A DNA stretch of 64,000 nucleotides from Henriciella sp. (GTDB taxonomy: Bacteria > Pseudomonadota > Alphaproteobacteria > Caulobacterales > Hyphomonadaceae): positions 310,001 to 374,000 of the forward strand of contig JASJAO010000002.1 in assembly GCA_030066975.1 (NCBI GenBank), in the 5' to 3' direction. Shown here one piece after another: positions 24,055 to 31,473 of this stretch (positions are counted from its first letter, which is position 1; each line of letters opens with the position of its first letter). A program made the position numbers and the translations under genes. Under the pieces are notes generated by a model that saw only the letters and a program-made list of their open reading frames with translations, did not search any database and was not told where the DNA came from.

Positions 24055-25448
24055 CCAATCACTCCGCTGATCGCGGCGCGGGCTGCAAGGTACGGGCTCA
24101 TTAAATGCGTGCGGCCGCCGCGGCCCTGGCGACCTTCAAAGTTCCGGTTGGACGTTGAGGCGCAGCGCTCACCCGGGGCGAGAATGTCGGGGTTCATGCC
24201 AAGACACATGGAACAGCCCGGCTCGCGCCATTCAAATCCAGCGGCGCTGAAAACTGTATCCAGGCCTTCTGATTCAGCTTGCGCCCGCACCAGTCCTGAT
24301 CCCGGTACGACCATGGCGCGCACGCCATCAGCCACCTTGCCGGTCTTCGCGACCTCAGCAGCTGCTCGCAAATCTTCGATCCGGGAATTGGTGCACGATC
24401 CGATGAAGACCCGCTGGATTGGTGTCCCGGCAATTCTCTGACCCGCTTCAAGTCCCATATAGTCGAGTGCGCGTGTCGCAGCCGAGCGCTTGATCGGATC
24501 TGTCATCTGAGCCGGATCAGGCACCTTTCCAGACAGAGCAATCGCCTGTTCCGGACTGGTGCCCCAGGTCACGGTCGGTTCAATATCTGCCGCGTTGATA
24601 TGGACGACCTCGTCCCATTGGGCATCGTCGTCGGAATAGAGCGTGCGCCAGTGCTTCTCCGCGAGTTCCCAGGCACCGCCTTTCGGTGCGGCCGGACGCC
24701 CACGCACATAGTCAAACGTGACCTCGTCCGGCGCGATCAGGCCTGCCCGTGCCCCGCCTTCAATCGACAGATTACAGAGCGTCATCCGCCCCTCCATCGA
24801 CAGGGCGCGGATGGCTTCCCCGCGATACTCCATCACATAACCGGTGCCACCCGCGGTCCCGATATGCGCGATCAGGTGCAGGGCGAGGTCCTTGGCGGTG
24901 ACCCCTTCATTCAGGCGTCCAGACACTTCGATCGCCATATTTTTCATCTTGCGGGCCCGAAGCGTTTGTGTGGCGAGCACATGCTCGACTTCGCTCGTGC
25001 CAATGCCATGCGCCAAAGCCCCAAAAGCCCCATGCGTCGAGGTATGACTGTCACCGCAGACAACCGTCATGCCAGGTTGTGTACGCCCCTGCTCTGGCCC
25101 GACCACGTGGACAATGCCGTTGCGCAACTCCCCCATCGGGAAGAACTCGATGCCGTGCTCTTTGACGTTTCTTGTAAGCGCCGTCAGCTGGTTGCGGGCC
25201 GCCTCATCCCTAACACCGGCGAGGCCCAGCGCCTGGTTCTCTGTAGGAGTATTGTGATCGGCAACGGCCAGTGTGAGATCAGGTCGGCGCACAGCCCGTC
25301 CTGCCGCTTTCAGACCTGCAAAAGCCTGCGGCGTTGTCACTTCATGGATCAGGTGCAGATCGATATAAAGCACCGCTTCGCCCGTGGCGGCGTCCTCGCC
25401 AACCAGGTGAGCATCCCAGATCTTGTCGTACAGCGTCTTTCCGGTCAT
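24051..25448 (-). CDS. leuC: 3-isopropylmalate dehydratase large subunit
   Basis: LeuC carries the [4Fe-4S] cluster of isopropylmalate isomerase. The 465-residue protein has the cluster cysteines in GSCTNSR and in CSMCLGMN further on, plus the [15 protein letters not shown] and [17 protein letters not shown] regions. It is the first gene of the eight-gene leucine operon. About 125 bases separate it from the terminator of the upstream repeat-protein gene, which must hold the operon promoter. Confidence 0.97.
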
Positions 25449-25571
25449 CGGTTCCGTCTCTTGTTTTGAGCGTAAACACCATGCTCAGCAGGTTCGCGCA
25501 AGCGTACAATCGTCGCTGAGCGCACGAGAATGACCACGGGCACTACAGTTTGGAACATTTGCATGCACAAC

Positions 25572-25600
25572 AAAAAGGCCGATCACCTGGTGACCGGCCT
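25572..25600 (-). terminator. Intrinsic terminator of the repeat-protein gene
   Basis: On the minus strand AGGCCGGTCAC pairs with GTGATCGGCCT around a short loop, with one mismatch, followed by TTTTTG. It ends transcription of the secreted repeat protein before the leucine operon. Confidence 0.85.
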
Positions 25601-25638
25601 CCTTGCTTACCTGATTTGGGCAGTCTGCCCGGGTCAGA

Positions 25639-27045
25639 CTAGTTACAGTTACACGGGGCGCCGACGTTCAGGACGACGAGGCTGGCGCGAACGGTTTCAT
25701 AACGGGTCGCATTGGTGACGGTTTCCTTGACCGCGTTCACGCGGCGATACTCAATCGGCTGGATGATCGTGCGGACCACGGGCTGATAGATATCACGCTG
25801 TGTCACAGCTTCGAAATAGGTCTCGGAACGCTCCTCAACATAGTCCTCGGTGACCTGTGGGATATAGTTCACGACCGTATCCGGAACCGACACGTCTTCG
25901 ACAATACCGCTGAGAATTTCCTCTTCGTAGCGGGTGTCATTGGTGATGGTCTCTGTGCGCTCATTGACCAGTACATTCTCGACCGGCTGAATGGTTGTCA
26001 CCACGACCGGTTGGATGATGTTACGCGTCACCTGGTCGATATAAACATCCTCAACCTCCAGAACCGTCCGCTCAGTAACCTGTGGAATGATCGTCTCGAG
26101 CAGATCTGGCGCGACGTCCGTTTCAACGATGAGCGGCAGACGCTCTTCTTCGTAACGGGTGTCTTCGGTGATCGTTTCCGTCGTACCACGCAGGATCTGA
26201 CGTTCAATCGGCTGGATCGTGGTCCGGGTCAGCGGCTGATAGACATTCCGCGTCCGGACGTAGGGTACGATTGTCTCGGTGATCTGCTCTTCGGTCACTG
26301 TGGTAACGTCTTCTGTCAGCGTTTCGATTGTCTCCGGGATCGGCTGCGCGCGGCGATCCAAAGGCGCCCGTACTGTCTCATAGCGGGTTTCGTTGGTAAT
26401 CGTCTCGGTCACCGGGCGCACAATACGGCGCTGAACTGGCACAACTGTTGTCCGCTCAATCGGCTGGATCACGTCACGCTCTGTAATCACATCGTAATAG
26501 GTCTCAGTGATTTCTTCGGTGTTCTCGACCGTAACCTGAGGAATGTAGTTCTCGACCAGCGTTGGCACTTCATCGCGCTCGATGATTACCGGCAAGCGGT
26601 TTTCTTCGTAACGCATGTCTTCAGTAACGTCCTCGACACTGCCTTGCAGGATCCGACGCTCAATCGGCTGGATCAGCGTGCGCTTGACCGGTTGAATAAT
26701 GTCGCGGCGGCTAACCACGTCGACATAAGTTGTTGTTTCTTCAATCTCGGTCCGCGTCTCGATCTGCTCATCAAGGTTTTCACAGCAGAGCGTGGTTTCG
26801 ATCGCCGTCTGCGATCCGCCCATATAACGCACGTCTGTGTTCGCATCAGGTGCCCCGGCCTGGGCAATGATGTCGCGGATTTCAGCATCCGTTAGCGAAC
26901 GGTCTGAAGTATCAGCACCGGTGATTTCGTAGCGCTCCCCAGCGGCGGCTTTATCATAGCTCGATTTATCGCCATCTGCGAACGCCGCAAACGGAAGTGC
27001 CACAGCAGCGACCATTCCGACGATAAGCGTCTTTGTTTGTCTCAT
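25639..27045 (-). CDS. Secreted protein of five tandem 76-residue repeats
   Basis: 468 residues from ATG 27045 (GGGGAAGG upstream; a GTG at 27051 is in frame). A signal peptide ends at AFA (about residue 23). The next region to residue 100 is non-repetitive. Five repeats follow, each centred on a QP pair at Q118, Q194, Q270, Q345 and Q421: spacing 76, 76, 75, 76. Each repeat has the shape RDIIQPxxRTxIQPIERR, then TETITxxTRYE, then an acidic stretch ending IPQVTE; the last is cut short. The only cysteines are CC at 87-88, before the array, and two in CNCN at the C-terminus. I do not recognise the family. The Thr/Val/Ile-rich alternation suggests an extended beta structure, perhaps envelope or surface. 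Confidence 0.88.
   Translation of the reverse strand: MRQTKTLIVGMVAAVALPFAAFADGDKSSYDKAAAGERYEITGADTSDRSLTDAEIRDIIAQAGAPDANTDVRYMGGSQTAIETTLCCENLDEQIETRTEIEETTTYVDVVSRRDIIQPVKRTLIQPIERRILQGSVEDVTEDMRYEENRLPVIIERDEVPTLVENYIPQVTVENTEEITETYYDVITERDVIQPIERTTVVPVQRRIVRPVTETITNETRYETVRAPLDRRAQPIPETIETLTEDVTTVTEEQITETIVPYVRTRNVYQPLTRTTIQPIERQILRGTTETITEDTRYEEERLPLIVETDVAPDLLETIIPQVTERTVLEVEDVYIDQVTRNIIQPVVVTTIQPVENVLVNERTETITNDTRYEEEILSGIVEDVSVPDTVVNYIPQVTEDYVEERSETYFEAVTQRDIYQPVVRTIIQPIEYRRVNAVKETVTNATRYETVRASLVVLNVGAPCNCN
25642..26736 (-). repeat. Tandem coding repeats, five units of about 228 bp
   Basis: These are the DNA of the five protein repeats. The units have diverged in sequence but keep an almost constant length of 225-228 bp, so they are old duplications under length selection. 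Recurrent strings on the plus strand include the reverse complement of IQPIER and of TRYE. Confidence 0.8.
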
Positions 27046-27064
27046 ATCCACCTTCCCCTAAGTC

Positions 27065-27078
27065 TGGCTTCGAAGCCA
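27065..27078. promoter_or_regulatory. 14-bp palindrome in the leader of the repeat-protein gene
   Basis: TGGCTTCGAAGCCA is a perfect palindrome about 20 bases upstream of the ATG at 27045, just before the ribosome-binding site. In RNA it can fold into a small hairpin and may affect translation or stability. Confidence 0.35.
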
Positions 27079-27154
27079 AAAGGTTATTTTTGTTGCGCCC
27101 CGAACCATTTCGAAACAGCAACAAAATGCGACGCAATATTCGCGCCTCTCGTTT

Positions 27155-27183
27155 CGTATATGTAATGAAAACAACGCGTCCAA
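27155..27183 (-). promoter_or_regulatory. Candidate sigma-70 promoter for the repeat-protein gene
   Basis: On the minus strand TTGGAC (27183-27178) is followed after 17 bases by TATACG (27160-27155). The predicted start gives a leader of about 100 bases. Confidence 0.4.
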
Positions 27184-27331
27184 ACAGATTCACCCAGAGC
27201 GGGAATCGCTTCGAATAGCGCTCGCTTGTTGAATCTGAGGTCAGATTCGACCTGAAAAGCCGCTACGTTAACGATAGAATCTCAGTGATGATCGCAGCAG
27301 TGCGCAGGCCCACAAGACTGGCAGCGCAGAC

Positions 27332-27360
27332 AAGAAACCCCAGCGCAGAGGCACCGGGGT
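27332..27360 (-). terminator. Intrinsic terminator after rplS
   Basis: On the minus strand ACCCCGGTGC pairs with GCGCTGGGGT (two wobble pairs) around a CTCT loop, followed by TTTCTT. It lies 32 bases beyond the rplS stop. Confidence 0.75.
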
Positions 27361-27391
27361 CATTCGGAACTTTTTACAGTTGGGGTCGGCG

Positions 27392-27940
27392 TTAGGCCTC
27401 GCCGTCGCCTTCTGCAGCAGCCGCTTCTTCGGCTGCGGCGGCCTTGGCTTCGGCGGCTTTCGCTTTCTCCAGCGCAATGCGCTCTTCAGCGGCTTCCTCG
27501 CGGCGTGCCACCTTCGCGGCATCCCGCTGACGGCGCAGTTCGGTTTTTGAAGTGGTGATTTCGGTGGTCTCAATGCCACGACCGCTGGTCCGCTCTGCGA
27601 TGCGTGCAGACTTCCCGCGGCGATCGCGCAGATAATAAAGCTTGGCGCGGCGCACGCGGCCCTTGCGCTTGACTTCGATGCTTTCGATCATTGGTGAGAC
27701 AACCGGGAACACACGCTCGACGCCTTCGCCGAAGGAGATTTTGCGGACGGTGAAGCTCTCGTTCAGGCCCTTACCAGCGCGCGCAATGCACACACCTTCG
27801 TAGCGCTGGACGCGCTCGCGGTCGCCTTCCTTGATCCGCACATTCACAGACAGGGTGTCACCTGGTGAAAATTCCGGGATGTTCTTACCAGCGGTGACGC
27901 GGGCAACTTCTTCAGCTTCAAGCTGTTCAATCATGTTCAT
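27392..27940 (-). CDS. rplS: 50S ribosomal protein L19 with long C-terminal extension
   Basis: L19 sits at the interface of the ribosomal subunits. The core (residues 1 to about 125) has the usual [26 protein letters not shown] region and the C-terminal [14 protein letters not shown] block. About 55 extra residues rich in Ala, Glu and Lys follow, giving 182 residues against roughly 115 in E. coli. Such tails occur in some Alphaproteobacteria. The start lies inside the end of trmD (14-base overlap), so the two are coupled. Confidence 0.95.
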
Positions 27941-28655
27941 CGTCCGTCTCCGACGCTCGTGAATGGGGTCCGTTGAGGAAAGCCGCCCATAAATCGGGAC
28001 GGCGGGCTTTTGTCAATGCCTTGCTCTGCTGATTCCGCCAGGCCGCGACCTTTTTATGATCGCCGGATGTCAGTACCGCAGGTGTTGCATGGCCTTCCCA
28101 GTCGCGGGGCAATGTATATTGGGGATATTCAAGCAGGCCATTGGCAAAGCTTTCGTCTTCAATCGAGGCCTGATTGCCTGCCACATCGGGAAGCAGCCGC
28201 AGGGTCGCCTCCAACATCGCCATGGCCGCAACTTCGCCGCCGGCCAGCACGAAATCGCCGAGGGAGACTTCAACCATATTGCGCGCGGCGATGACACGCT
28301 CGTCCAGCCCCTCGAATCGTCCACAAAAGAAGATGAGCCCGGGGCCTTCCGCCCAGTTGTGTGCCATAGACTGAGCGAAGGGCCGCCCTCTGGGGCTCGG
28401 ATAGATGATCGGGCGGTCAGACCCGGTCAGACTGTCAATCGCATTGGCCGCAATATCAGGGCGCAAAACCAGTCCCGCACCGCCACCGGCAGGTGTATCA
28501 TCGACCTGACGATGTTTGCCGCGCCCGAACGAGCGCAAGTCAACGGTTTCAAGTGACCAGAGCCCATTCTGGCGCGCGCGTTCGAGGATCGACACGCCCA
28601 GCGGGCCGGGAAACGCGTCCGGATAAAGCGTGATAATACTTGCAGCAAAGGCCAT
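27927..28655 (-). CDS. trmD: tRNA (guanine-37-N1)-methyltransferase
   Basis: TrmD methylates G37 of tRNAs reading CNN codons and prevents frameshifting. The 242-residue protein has the trefoil-knot SPOUT signatures: [26 protein letters not shown] and [13 protein letters not shown]. The DNA-binding-like C-terminal domain includes RRPDLWAAF. It precedes rplS as usual, but rpsP and rimM are not upstream; a Tag-like glycosylase gene takes their place. Confidence 0.96.
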
Positions 28656-29928: not shown

Positions 29929-31392
29929 TCAACTGATGTCCTGGCCATCAATCTGGCAGACTCCGGCGCGATAATTTCCAACCGTTCGGATGACTTCTTC
30001 GCCATCTGGCTCAACGCGAACGCCGGAAACGAGACTTTCCAGAACCCGCTGTACCAGGCCGTCGAGACGGGTGACGACATAGCAGTCAACGGTGGGCTCT
30101 GCATGCGGATTGCCGATGCCGCTATCATCGGTCAGGAACAGGTAGCGCCCGCCGGTAATCTGAGCCATGCCGCGCATCAGAAACTCGGCTGTTTTGTCGA
30201 CGCCGCTGGCTGCGAGCGGCACGATATGGATGCCGCGTGTTCGGGAGATCAGGCCGCTATCCCAGGTCTCTGGAATATGTTCGTCATGCGGCGGCGCGTC
30301 AGCCACCAGCATGTTCACTTTCACCGCATCGTCCCGCCAATCGAACTTTAGCCCGGCTGAAAGCGCGTCATGCATGGCCTCCGGGAAGTCTCCGCCTCCG
30401 CGCGCGGACTGGTCGGCGAGTTCCGCCTCAAAGGCCGATAAGTCATCGGTAAACGGGTAGTCCTTCACCACATAGGCATCGCCTTCGTCGCGATAGACGA
30501 TGAAGCCGGCGCGAATATCCAGTTCTGAATTCGACTCGCGCACCCGTTCCAGAATGCCGAGCAACTCAGCCTGCAGATAAGACATCTCATCGCCCATCGA
30601 CCCGGTCGCGTCGATGGTCAGCAGAAGGTCGAGCTTCTGTACCGTTTTGATGTCTTTGGAGAGATCAAACGTGACAGTTCCTCCAAGATCCAGGCGCTCT
30701 TGAGACAGGCGGTGGGTGATCTTTCGCGCGCCATCGGAGGCGACGGTAATCTTCATCCCGGCCTCGATCACATCATAGCTCGGATAGATATAGGCCATAC
30801 CATCGGCGCCGGTGCGCAGGGGGAACATCGGGTCGCCCTCCGCCGTCGTCAGCGAAATTTTGGCGAGCGGGACCGGCTTTCCCAACCGGTCCACAACTTT
30901 GATCCCGATACGGCGATTGGCATCGACATAGGGAAGTTTCTTGCCGGAGAGCTCGTCTTGAAGAACCTTGTCGAGATAGGCCTTGTAGAGATCCGGGTTG
31001 AGGACATCATCATAGTCGCCCGCCGTGAGCAGACCCGCTTGCGGTTCGGGCTGCTCGACTTCAGGCTCGATCGAGCGATCTTCCTTGAACTCAGACAGTG
31101 CCCGCTCCGTGGGGCTCGCCGTTTTCAGCGACCGGCTGCCGGTGACCACAACCTCGTCAGCCATAGCGCCAGCCTCAGCTGCGACTGCCCCTGTGTCTGA
31201 TCTGATCACCGGAGGTGGCGGCGGGGCCGGAGGAGGCCCTGGCGGTGACGGCGCCACCGGCTCTCCCCCTACATCCGCAGATCCGACTTCGGACCCGGCG
31301 GCCTCACCCGAAGTCCCCGACGTGGTTTCACAACCCGCCAGTATGATAAGCGCGGCACCGGCCACTCCCATTGATCGAAAAGTCGGTTTCAT
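29929..31392 (-). CDS. von Willebrand factor A-domain lipoprotein
   Basis: 487 residues from ATG 31392 (GGAG 7 bases upstream). A signal peptide ends in the lipobox LAGC (Cys21). A proline-rich linker follows (about 45-62), then DEVVVTGSR at 79-87, a carboxypeptidase-regulatory-like beta segment (about 160-245) and a vWA domain starting at LLLTIDATGSMGDEM. The MIDAS metal site DxTxS is D261, T263, S265. The VVVTGSR string resembles the start of TonB-receptor plug domains, which is odd in a lipoprotein. vWA domains mediate metal-dependent protein binding. Partner and role unknown. Confidence 0.85.
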   Translation of the reverse strand: MKPTFRSMGVAGAALIILAGCETTSGTSGEAAGSEVGSADVGGEPVAPSPPGPPPAPPPPPVIRSDTGAVAAEAGAMADEVVVTGSRSLKTASPTERALSEFKEDRSIEPEVEQPEPQAGLLTAGDYDDVLNPDLYKAYLDKVLQDELSGKKLPYVDANRRIGIKVVDRLGKPVPLAKISLTTAEGDPMFPLRTGADGMAYIYPSYDVIEAGMKITVASDGARKITHRLSQERLDLGGTVTFDLSKDIKTVQKLDLLLTIDATGSMGDEMSYLQAELLGILERVRESNSELDIRAGFIVYRDEGDAYVVKDYPFTDDLSAFEAELADQSARGGGDFPEAMHDALSAGLKFDWRDDAVKVNMLVADAPPHDEHIPETWDSGLISRTRGIHIVPLAASGVDKTAEFLMRGMAQITGGRYLFLTDDSGIGNPHAEPTVDCYVVTRLDGLVQRVLESLVSGVRVEPDGEEVIRTVGNYRAGVCQIDGQDIS

Positions 31393-31473
31393 CGCGCGTC
31401 TCCCAAATGACATGAAAGACATAAAACCATACGGTTTGAGGCGTAAACATGACGCCGGTAAGAGAATTCGGTG

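Follow-up and report, generated by a model that had tools for sequence, protein, structure and literature searches.

A protein of five tandem units, each 76 residues long or one residue shorter, is encoded in the window (the whole stretch of 64,000 nucleotides of a Henriciella genome analysed here), and its only four cysteines sit in two pairs at the ends of the array, the last cysteines of the two pairs occupying equivalent positions within the repeat. From these ends and from an apparent signal peptide we tentatively propose, with less than even confidence, that the protein (P0001, 468 aa) may be a Sec-exported, elongated structural protein of the envelope, the ends of which would be joined head-to-tail by disulfides outside the cytoplasm. 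Its site would probably be the periplasm, the outer membrane or the cell surface.

Gene and repeat architecture

The gene occupies 25639..27045 on the minus strand, with its ATG at 27045 and the stop, at 25639-25641, included; a GTG six bases 5′ of the ATG is an alternative start that would lengthen P0001 to 470 residues. It is present in a single copy in its own Henriciella genome. Read by eye, the N-terminus has a basic start, a hydrophobic core and the residues AFA followed by DGD, which together make up an apparent Sec signal peptide of about residues 1-25 (26971..27045, minus strand) and agree with the initial annotation in pointing to an exported protein. The N-termini of the relatives resemble that of P0001, except for L028, whose sequence begins at a contig end. 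The segment that follows, residues 26-87 (26785..26970, minus strand), carries a conserved LTDxEIRDII-like stretch and varies in length among relatives.

The vicinal pair C87-C88 (26782..26787, minus strand) stands at the junction phase that opens unit 1. All five units lie on the minus strand: units 1 (residues 88-163, 26557..26784), 2 (164-239, 26329..26556) and 3 (240-315, 26101..26328) have 76 residues each, unit 4 (316-390, 25876..26100) is one residue shorter at 75, and unit 5 (391-466, 25648..25875) again has 76 and ends in a VVLNVG run-out ahead of the terminal cysteines. The latter, C465 and C467, form a C-x-C within CNCN (25645..25653, minus strand), and C467 is phase-equivalent to C88. 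The near-constant repeat length first reported is thus confirmed at 76/76/76/75/76, and the QP sites given with it, at residues 118, 194, 270, 345 and 421, are exact; further QP pairs lie at 126, 234, 278, 353 and 429, and in unit 2 the second QP is replaced by VVPV. Likewise as first described, the cysteines are confined to positions 87, 88, 465 and 467.

The repeat is far beyond chance: the mean BLOSUM62 score of P0001 against itself is 1.79 at an offset of 227, 1.51 at 303 and 1.35 at 76, and the maximum over all offsets in 500 shuffles of the sequence was 0.51. The initial annotation had also described an alternation of hydrophobic and charged residues, but this is not a simple alternation, since the autocorrelation of hydrophobic residues drops to -0.30 at lag 2 and reaches +0.14 at lag 4 and +0.15 at lag 8, a period of four. 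Within the array (residues 89-462) there is no Cys, His or Trp; Val makes up 14.4%, Ile 10.4%, Thr 15.2%, Lys 0.5%, Gly 1.1%, Ala 1.9% and charged residues 30.1%. Because His and Trp are missing too and Lys is so scarce, composition accounts in part for the lack of cysteine there.

Distribution and genomic setting

Relatives were sought across the Hyphomonadaceae, where the initial annotation had suggested looking, and the protein search found them in 28 of the 105 family genomes and 4 of the 10 genera (a Hyphomonas MAG is among the bearers, besides Henriciella), or in 23 of the 89 most complete genomes. There was no match in the other 77 (66 of the most complete), and for that reason any role of the protein would not be essential for the family. 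A profile of two units recovered the same 28 genomes. At wider ranks, where the genome sets are samples of larger groups, 19 of the 299 order genomes matched, every one of them in the same family as the source; a class-level profile search matched 1 genome of 385, the source itself; and the two-unit profile matched 4 of the 398 phylum genomes, three of them of the same genus and the fourth (G778) through two proteins (E 1.3e-4 and 0.003), in which the runs VQPVV and EQVTEQVTEQ are short and were set aside as chance. No credible relative was found outside the family in the samples searched, and none among the viral contigs, plasmids and phages searched. For a genome of a different genus that has the gene, 9 of 40 relatives carry it too, with no additional genus gained.

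Within the genus, the gene is present in 19 of 29 genomes, in all 19 between rplS and leuC. Nine loci were examined among the ten genomes that lack it, the tenth genome (G022) having yielded only a distant aconitase: at five of them, leuC and the matched part of rplS are separated by 213-428 bases; two others have rplS and leuC about 1.1-1.3 kb apart with other reading frames in between; and at the last two, rplS is absent from the flank. Four loci were read in other genera, and no partner gene common to the genera lies beside the repeat gene at them; because the neighbours differ from genus to genus, an operon-based function was dropped. At both loci read in one of these genera (g7; L099:2393-4725 and L101:7340-9656), apparent ahpC and ahpF genes, for peroxide reduction, lie near the repeat gene, a proximity treated as coincidence; the source genus has the rplS/leuC setting instead.

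After rplS in the window, a terminator-like hairpin (27336..27361, minus strand), identified by a consensus match only, would give the repeat gene its own transcription unit; the scan found 8 sites of this type, where shuffled sequence has 2.5 on average. An Rfam scan of 25000-28000 returned no match. Farther along the window, the minus-strand frame at 29929-31422 is lipoprotein-like by eye and has a VWA_4 domain and a DEVVVTGSR stretch that resembles the start of TonB-dependent receptor plugs. Judged by its setting and distribution, the repeat gene is a stand-alone, lineage-restricted, dispensable, single-copy accessory gene. Values of dN/dS across 12 pairs of relatives range from 0.03 to 0.17, strong purifying selection, and the protein is therefore maintained.

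Conserved cysteine ends and how they might be joined

Twenty-six relatives were aligned, one row of which (L034) has unread residues in its array. C87, C88, C465 and C467 are invariant in all 26, and no cysteine was seen between the two pairs in any of them, L034 with its unread residues included; homologues with cysteines scattered among the repeats, looked for as evidence against the initial annotation's picture, did not appear. Two genomes omitted from the alignment, inspected at the ends only, have the same cysteine ends, and two rows each have one extra cysteine outside the array, in the signal peptide in L027 and near the C-terminus in L026. Among the 25 five-unit relatives, residues 88-467 contain 1 gap column in 381, and residues 25-87 contain 28 in 69. 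In 24 of the 26, C88 and C467 stand 379 residues apart; the distance is 380 in L027 and 303 in the four-unit relative L035. If lengths of 76, 76, 76, 75 and 76 are cut off from C88 onward, C467 falls where a sixth unit would begin, and at the phase that C88 and C467 occupy, the unit junctions inside the array read VEN, IET, LET and VVN.

The units are not interchangeable. Across 24 proteins, units at the same position are 59-66% identical and units at different positions 36-47%, and since the former are the more alike, the five units were probably distinct before the genera split. In L035 (1492-2664, plus strand), the four units resemble, in order, a 1/3 hybrid, 4, 2 and 5, the last being clearly unit-5-like only in its second half. 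Judged from this one relative, unit number and inner order appear to be changeable, with the cysteine ends and their phase kept.

Since the end cysteines are invariant and C88 and C467 share a phase, the two ends would fit a covalent repeat junction, either between molecules or within one; the sequence is consistent with both, and the disulfides themselves are what we infer. As we envisage it, P0001 would be exported by Sec, and its array would fold into a rod or coil rich in beta structure; in the periplasm, oxidation of the DsbA/DsbB type would then pair the C-terminal CxC of one molecule with the N-terminal CC of the next, and the repeat would continue across molecules as a covalent head-to-tail chain. 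With the cysteines at the unit junction, a four-unit molecule should be joinable as well as a five-unit one. The source genome has one DsbB match and two Thioredoxin_4 (DsbA-like) matches. The head-to-tail step is the least certain part of the proposal: either cysteine pair might form a disulfide of its own or attach to another protein, and position-specific units oppose a uniform polymer of interchangeable repeats. We rank it first, by a small margin, over self-closure and a monomeric rod. Of the end-to-end disulfide linkage suggested at the outset, then, the part that stands is the fit of the ends, given the phase equivalence of C88 and C467; linkage between molecules, and with it a fibre or surface lattice, is less secure, as self-closure would fit no less well and the cysteines may instead pair locally or stay as free thiols.

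An AlphaFold2 model of the full-length protein (26 rows; mean pLDDT 72.8, pTM 0.30) gives each unit short strands and a single long one, of 53-61 residues, with pLDDT under 50 for residues 1-49. In a model of a two-unit fragment (95 rows), pTM is 0.18 and the long strands are gone. Because of the low pTM of both models and the loss of the long strands in the second, no fold is established, and a beta-rich, extended array is a lead. Foldseek searches of the PDB and a viral library with the unreliable full-length model gave nothing at E <=0.001 (best 0.24 and 0.029); of the solved beta-solenoids and functional amyloids considered (FapC, CsgA), FapC was the PDB match at E 0.24, with a probability of 0.02, and from the same model VIA-align returned a single row (Z 2.3, rmsd 23.6 over 85 residues). 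A missing structural match from an unreliable model is no evidence of a new fold.

The least improbable of the alternatives, though we doubt it, is a monomeric rod or spacer in which local C87-C88 and C465-C467 disulfides, or bonds to a partner, would cap or anchor the ends while the array spans a distance in the manner of SasG. Both CC and CxC are able to close locally, the fixed length of the array suits a spacer, and the full-length model predicts extended beta structure. However, no neighbour is conserved between genera in the loci read, although a partner could be unlinked, and the repeat phase shared by the last cysteine of each pair would be left unexplained. The staphylococcal SasG/Aap G5-E proteins have tandem beta-rich units of about 50-80 residues. 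By analogy, P0001 would be like them in being exported, built of tandem units and beta-rich. G5-type Pfam profiles leave P0001 unmatched at E values up to 10 and are absent from the 25 listed of the 26 families that the relatives match (E <=1). SasG is described in PMC4458895 as lacking covalent cross-links.

Self-closure, in which the end cysteines would pair within one molecule and clasp it into a ring or closed coil, comes next and is likewise unlikely in our estimation. It depends on C88 and C467 being in phase just as the chain does; moreover, position-specific units of fixed length suit a closed object of defined size, and L035 would simply be a smaller ring. Against this, both models fall short of a compact shape predicted with confidence (pTM 0.30 and 0.18, which is weak evidence), and four- and five-unit proteins, with their units reordered, would not obviously both close.

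Lower still we place a polypeptide that lacks an independent fold and is mostly extended, reliant on a partner or disordered, a distinctly improbable reading that would accommodate the two-unit fragment predicted without long strands and an array rich in Pro, Glu, Thr and Arg, but that sits badly with 1 gap column in 381 and the low dN/dS. Near-gapless arrays with low dN/dS are unusual for disordered linkers.

Comparison with articulin-like and other proteins

A homologue among the known enzymes or repeat families would have told against the initial annotation, and the search for one came up empty for P0001 itself: there was no match in Pfam or NCBIfam up to E 10 and none in PADLOC up to E 1, and the best PDB sequence matches (E 2.6 and 1.8) are not credible. 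The 26 relatives together touch 26 Pfam families at E up to 1, and because P0001 has none and the families are mutually unrelated, these are read as chance. At their head stands PF23559, a plant winged helix, matched by 9 of the 26 relatives at a best E of 3.3e-6; it was set aside as composition-driven, and so were Ribosomal_L9_C, with 2 relatives and a best E of 0.0015, and AceK_regulatory, with 14 relatives and a best E of 0.0057. Four weak PHROGs families (best E 0.002), in which no stretch passes alone, were also set aside. Planctomycete YTV repeat proteins (PF07639) have Val/Thr-rich repeats, as does P0001, but their profile does not match it at E values up to 10; a genome search with PF07639, run without a positive control, carries no weight. 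Word searches of open-licence PMC papers gave no paper on the repeat family among the matches listed.

The initial annotation had likened the array to alveolin-type repeats, in style only, and that qualification was apt: P0001 has no IMCp match, far more Thr and no 12-residue period. By PMC6212826 and PMC4303705, the alveolins, articulins and plateins share with P0001 repetitive arrays of Val/Ile and charged residues from which Gly and Ala are nearly absent. Long beta-strands without helix are predicted for their arrays, and P0001 has such strands in its full-length model but not in the two-unit fragment. They differ from it in repeats of 12 residues rather than 76, in Thr and Lys contents and in matching IMCp. 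PMC6212826 gives epiplastins as V 25+/-7, I 9+/-4, K 9+/-4, T 3+/-2 and charged 35+/-6%, with Gly and Ala near-excluded. Against these values the Ile, charge, Gly and Ala of the P0001 array fit, Val is 1.5 SD low and Lys 2.1 SD low; the deciding mismatch in composition is Thr, at 15.2% some 6 SD high. The IMCp profile (PF12314) has no match in P0001 (up to E 10) or in its genome, with a positive control in Caulobacter vibrioides, and it matches 2 of the 299 order genomes, both of one genus in another family. The 12-residue tandem periodicity that PMC4303705 reports for epiplastins by HHrepID is missing from P0001, in which the unit is 76 and the lag-12 hydrophobic autocorrelation (0.03) is within the shuffle range.

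The two IMCp-matching proteins of the order (L102:988-2088, minus strand; L103:1144-2202, plus strand) are articulin-like proteins of one genus, and each opens with what looks like a Sec signal peptide and closes with a tail rich in Cys and Gly. L103 lies near the Pfam IMCp cut-off of 21.1, scoring 18.8 in the protein scan and 22.2 in the genome search. They are like P0001 in the apparent signal peptide, a repetitive array of Val, Pro and charged residues and C-terminal cysteines, and unlike it in their short, Lys-rich repeats of the VYVDRPVEKK type and in a tail of about 160 residues rich in Pro, Gly and Cys. A profile comparison with them aligned only the signal peptide (probability 10), a weak test, as their profile consists of two rows 93% identical. 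'Articulin-like' proteins are reported from Caulobacter (PMC6212826, PMC4303705), and plateins are described as articulins with signal peptides (PMC4303705). According to PMC6212826, the bacterial proteins have yet to be localized, and a submembranous plaque is offered there as one possible site in Caulobacter; the words 'signal peptide' and 'signal sequence' are absent from its main text. The features of L102 and L103 suggest that export may be likelier for these proteins than the submembranous location proposed for the Caulobacter articulins.

That P0001 itself is a bacterial representative of the articulin/alveolin superfamily (epiplastins, Pfam IMCp), serving as an intracellular skeleton, is very improbable and its membership largely refuted, as far as sequence comparison can tell: a Gly/Ala-poor array of Val/Ile and charged residues (30.1% charged against 35+/-6), the Caulobacter proteins and the precedent of plateins with signal peptides (PMC6212826 and PMC4303705) speak for it, and the missing IMCp match, Thr at 15.2% and Lys at 0.5%, the missing 12-residue period, a profile comparison confined to the signal peptide (weak as that test is) and an apparent export signal, though plateins have one too, speak against it.

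Beyond the head-to-tail proposal for P0001 lies a wider idea, which we put forward as speculative and consider unlikely to hold in full: that these proteins may form a new exported family whose covalent chains or rings have a set number of units, made of specialised units of fixed length and spliced, between molecules or within one, by extracytoplasmic disulfides at junction cysteines, a convergent counterpart of the protist articulin and platein skeletons. If true, this would be a simple natural rule for linking proteins covalently into chains or rings once they have left the cytoplasm, in which any whole number of units could be joined, because the cysteines lie at the unit junction at both ends; and the family would offer a tractable exported comparison for the bacterial 'articulin-like' proteins of PMC6212826.
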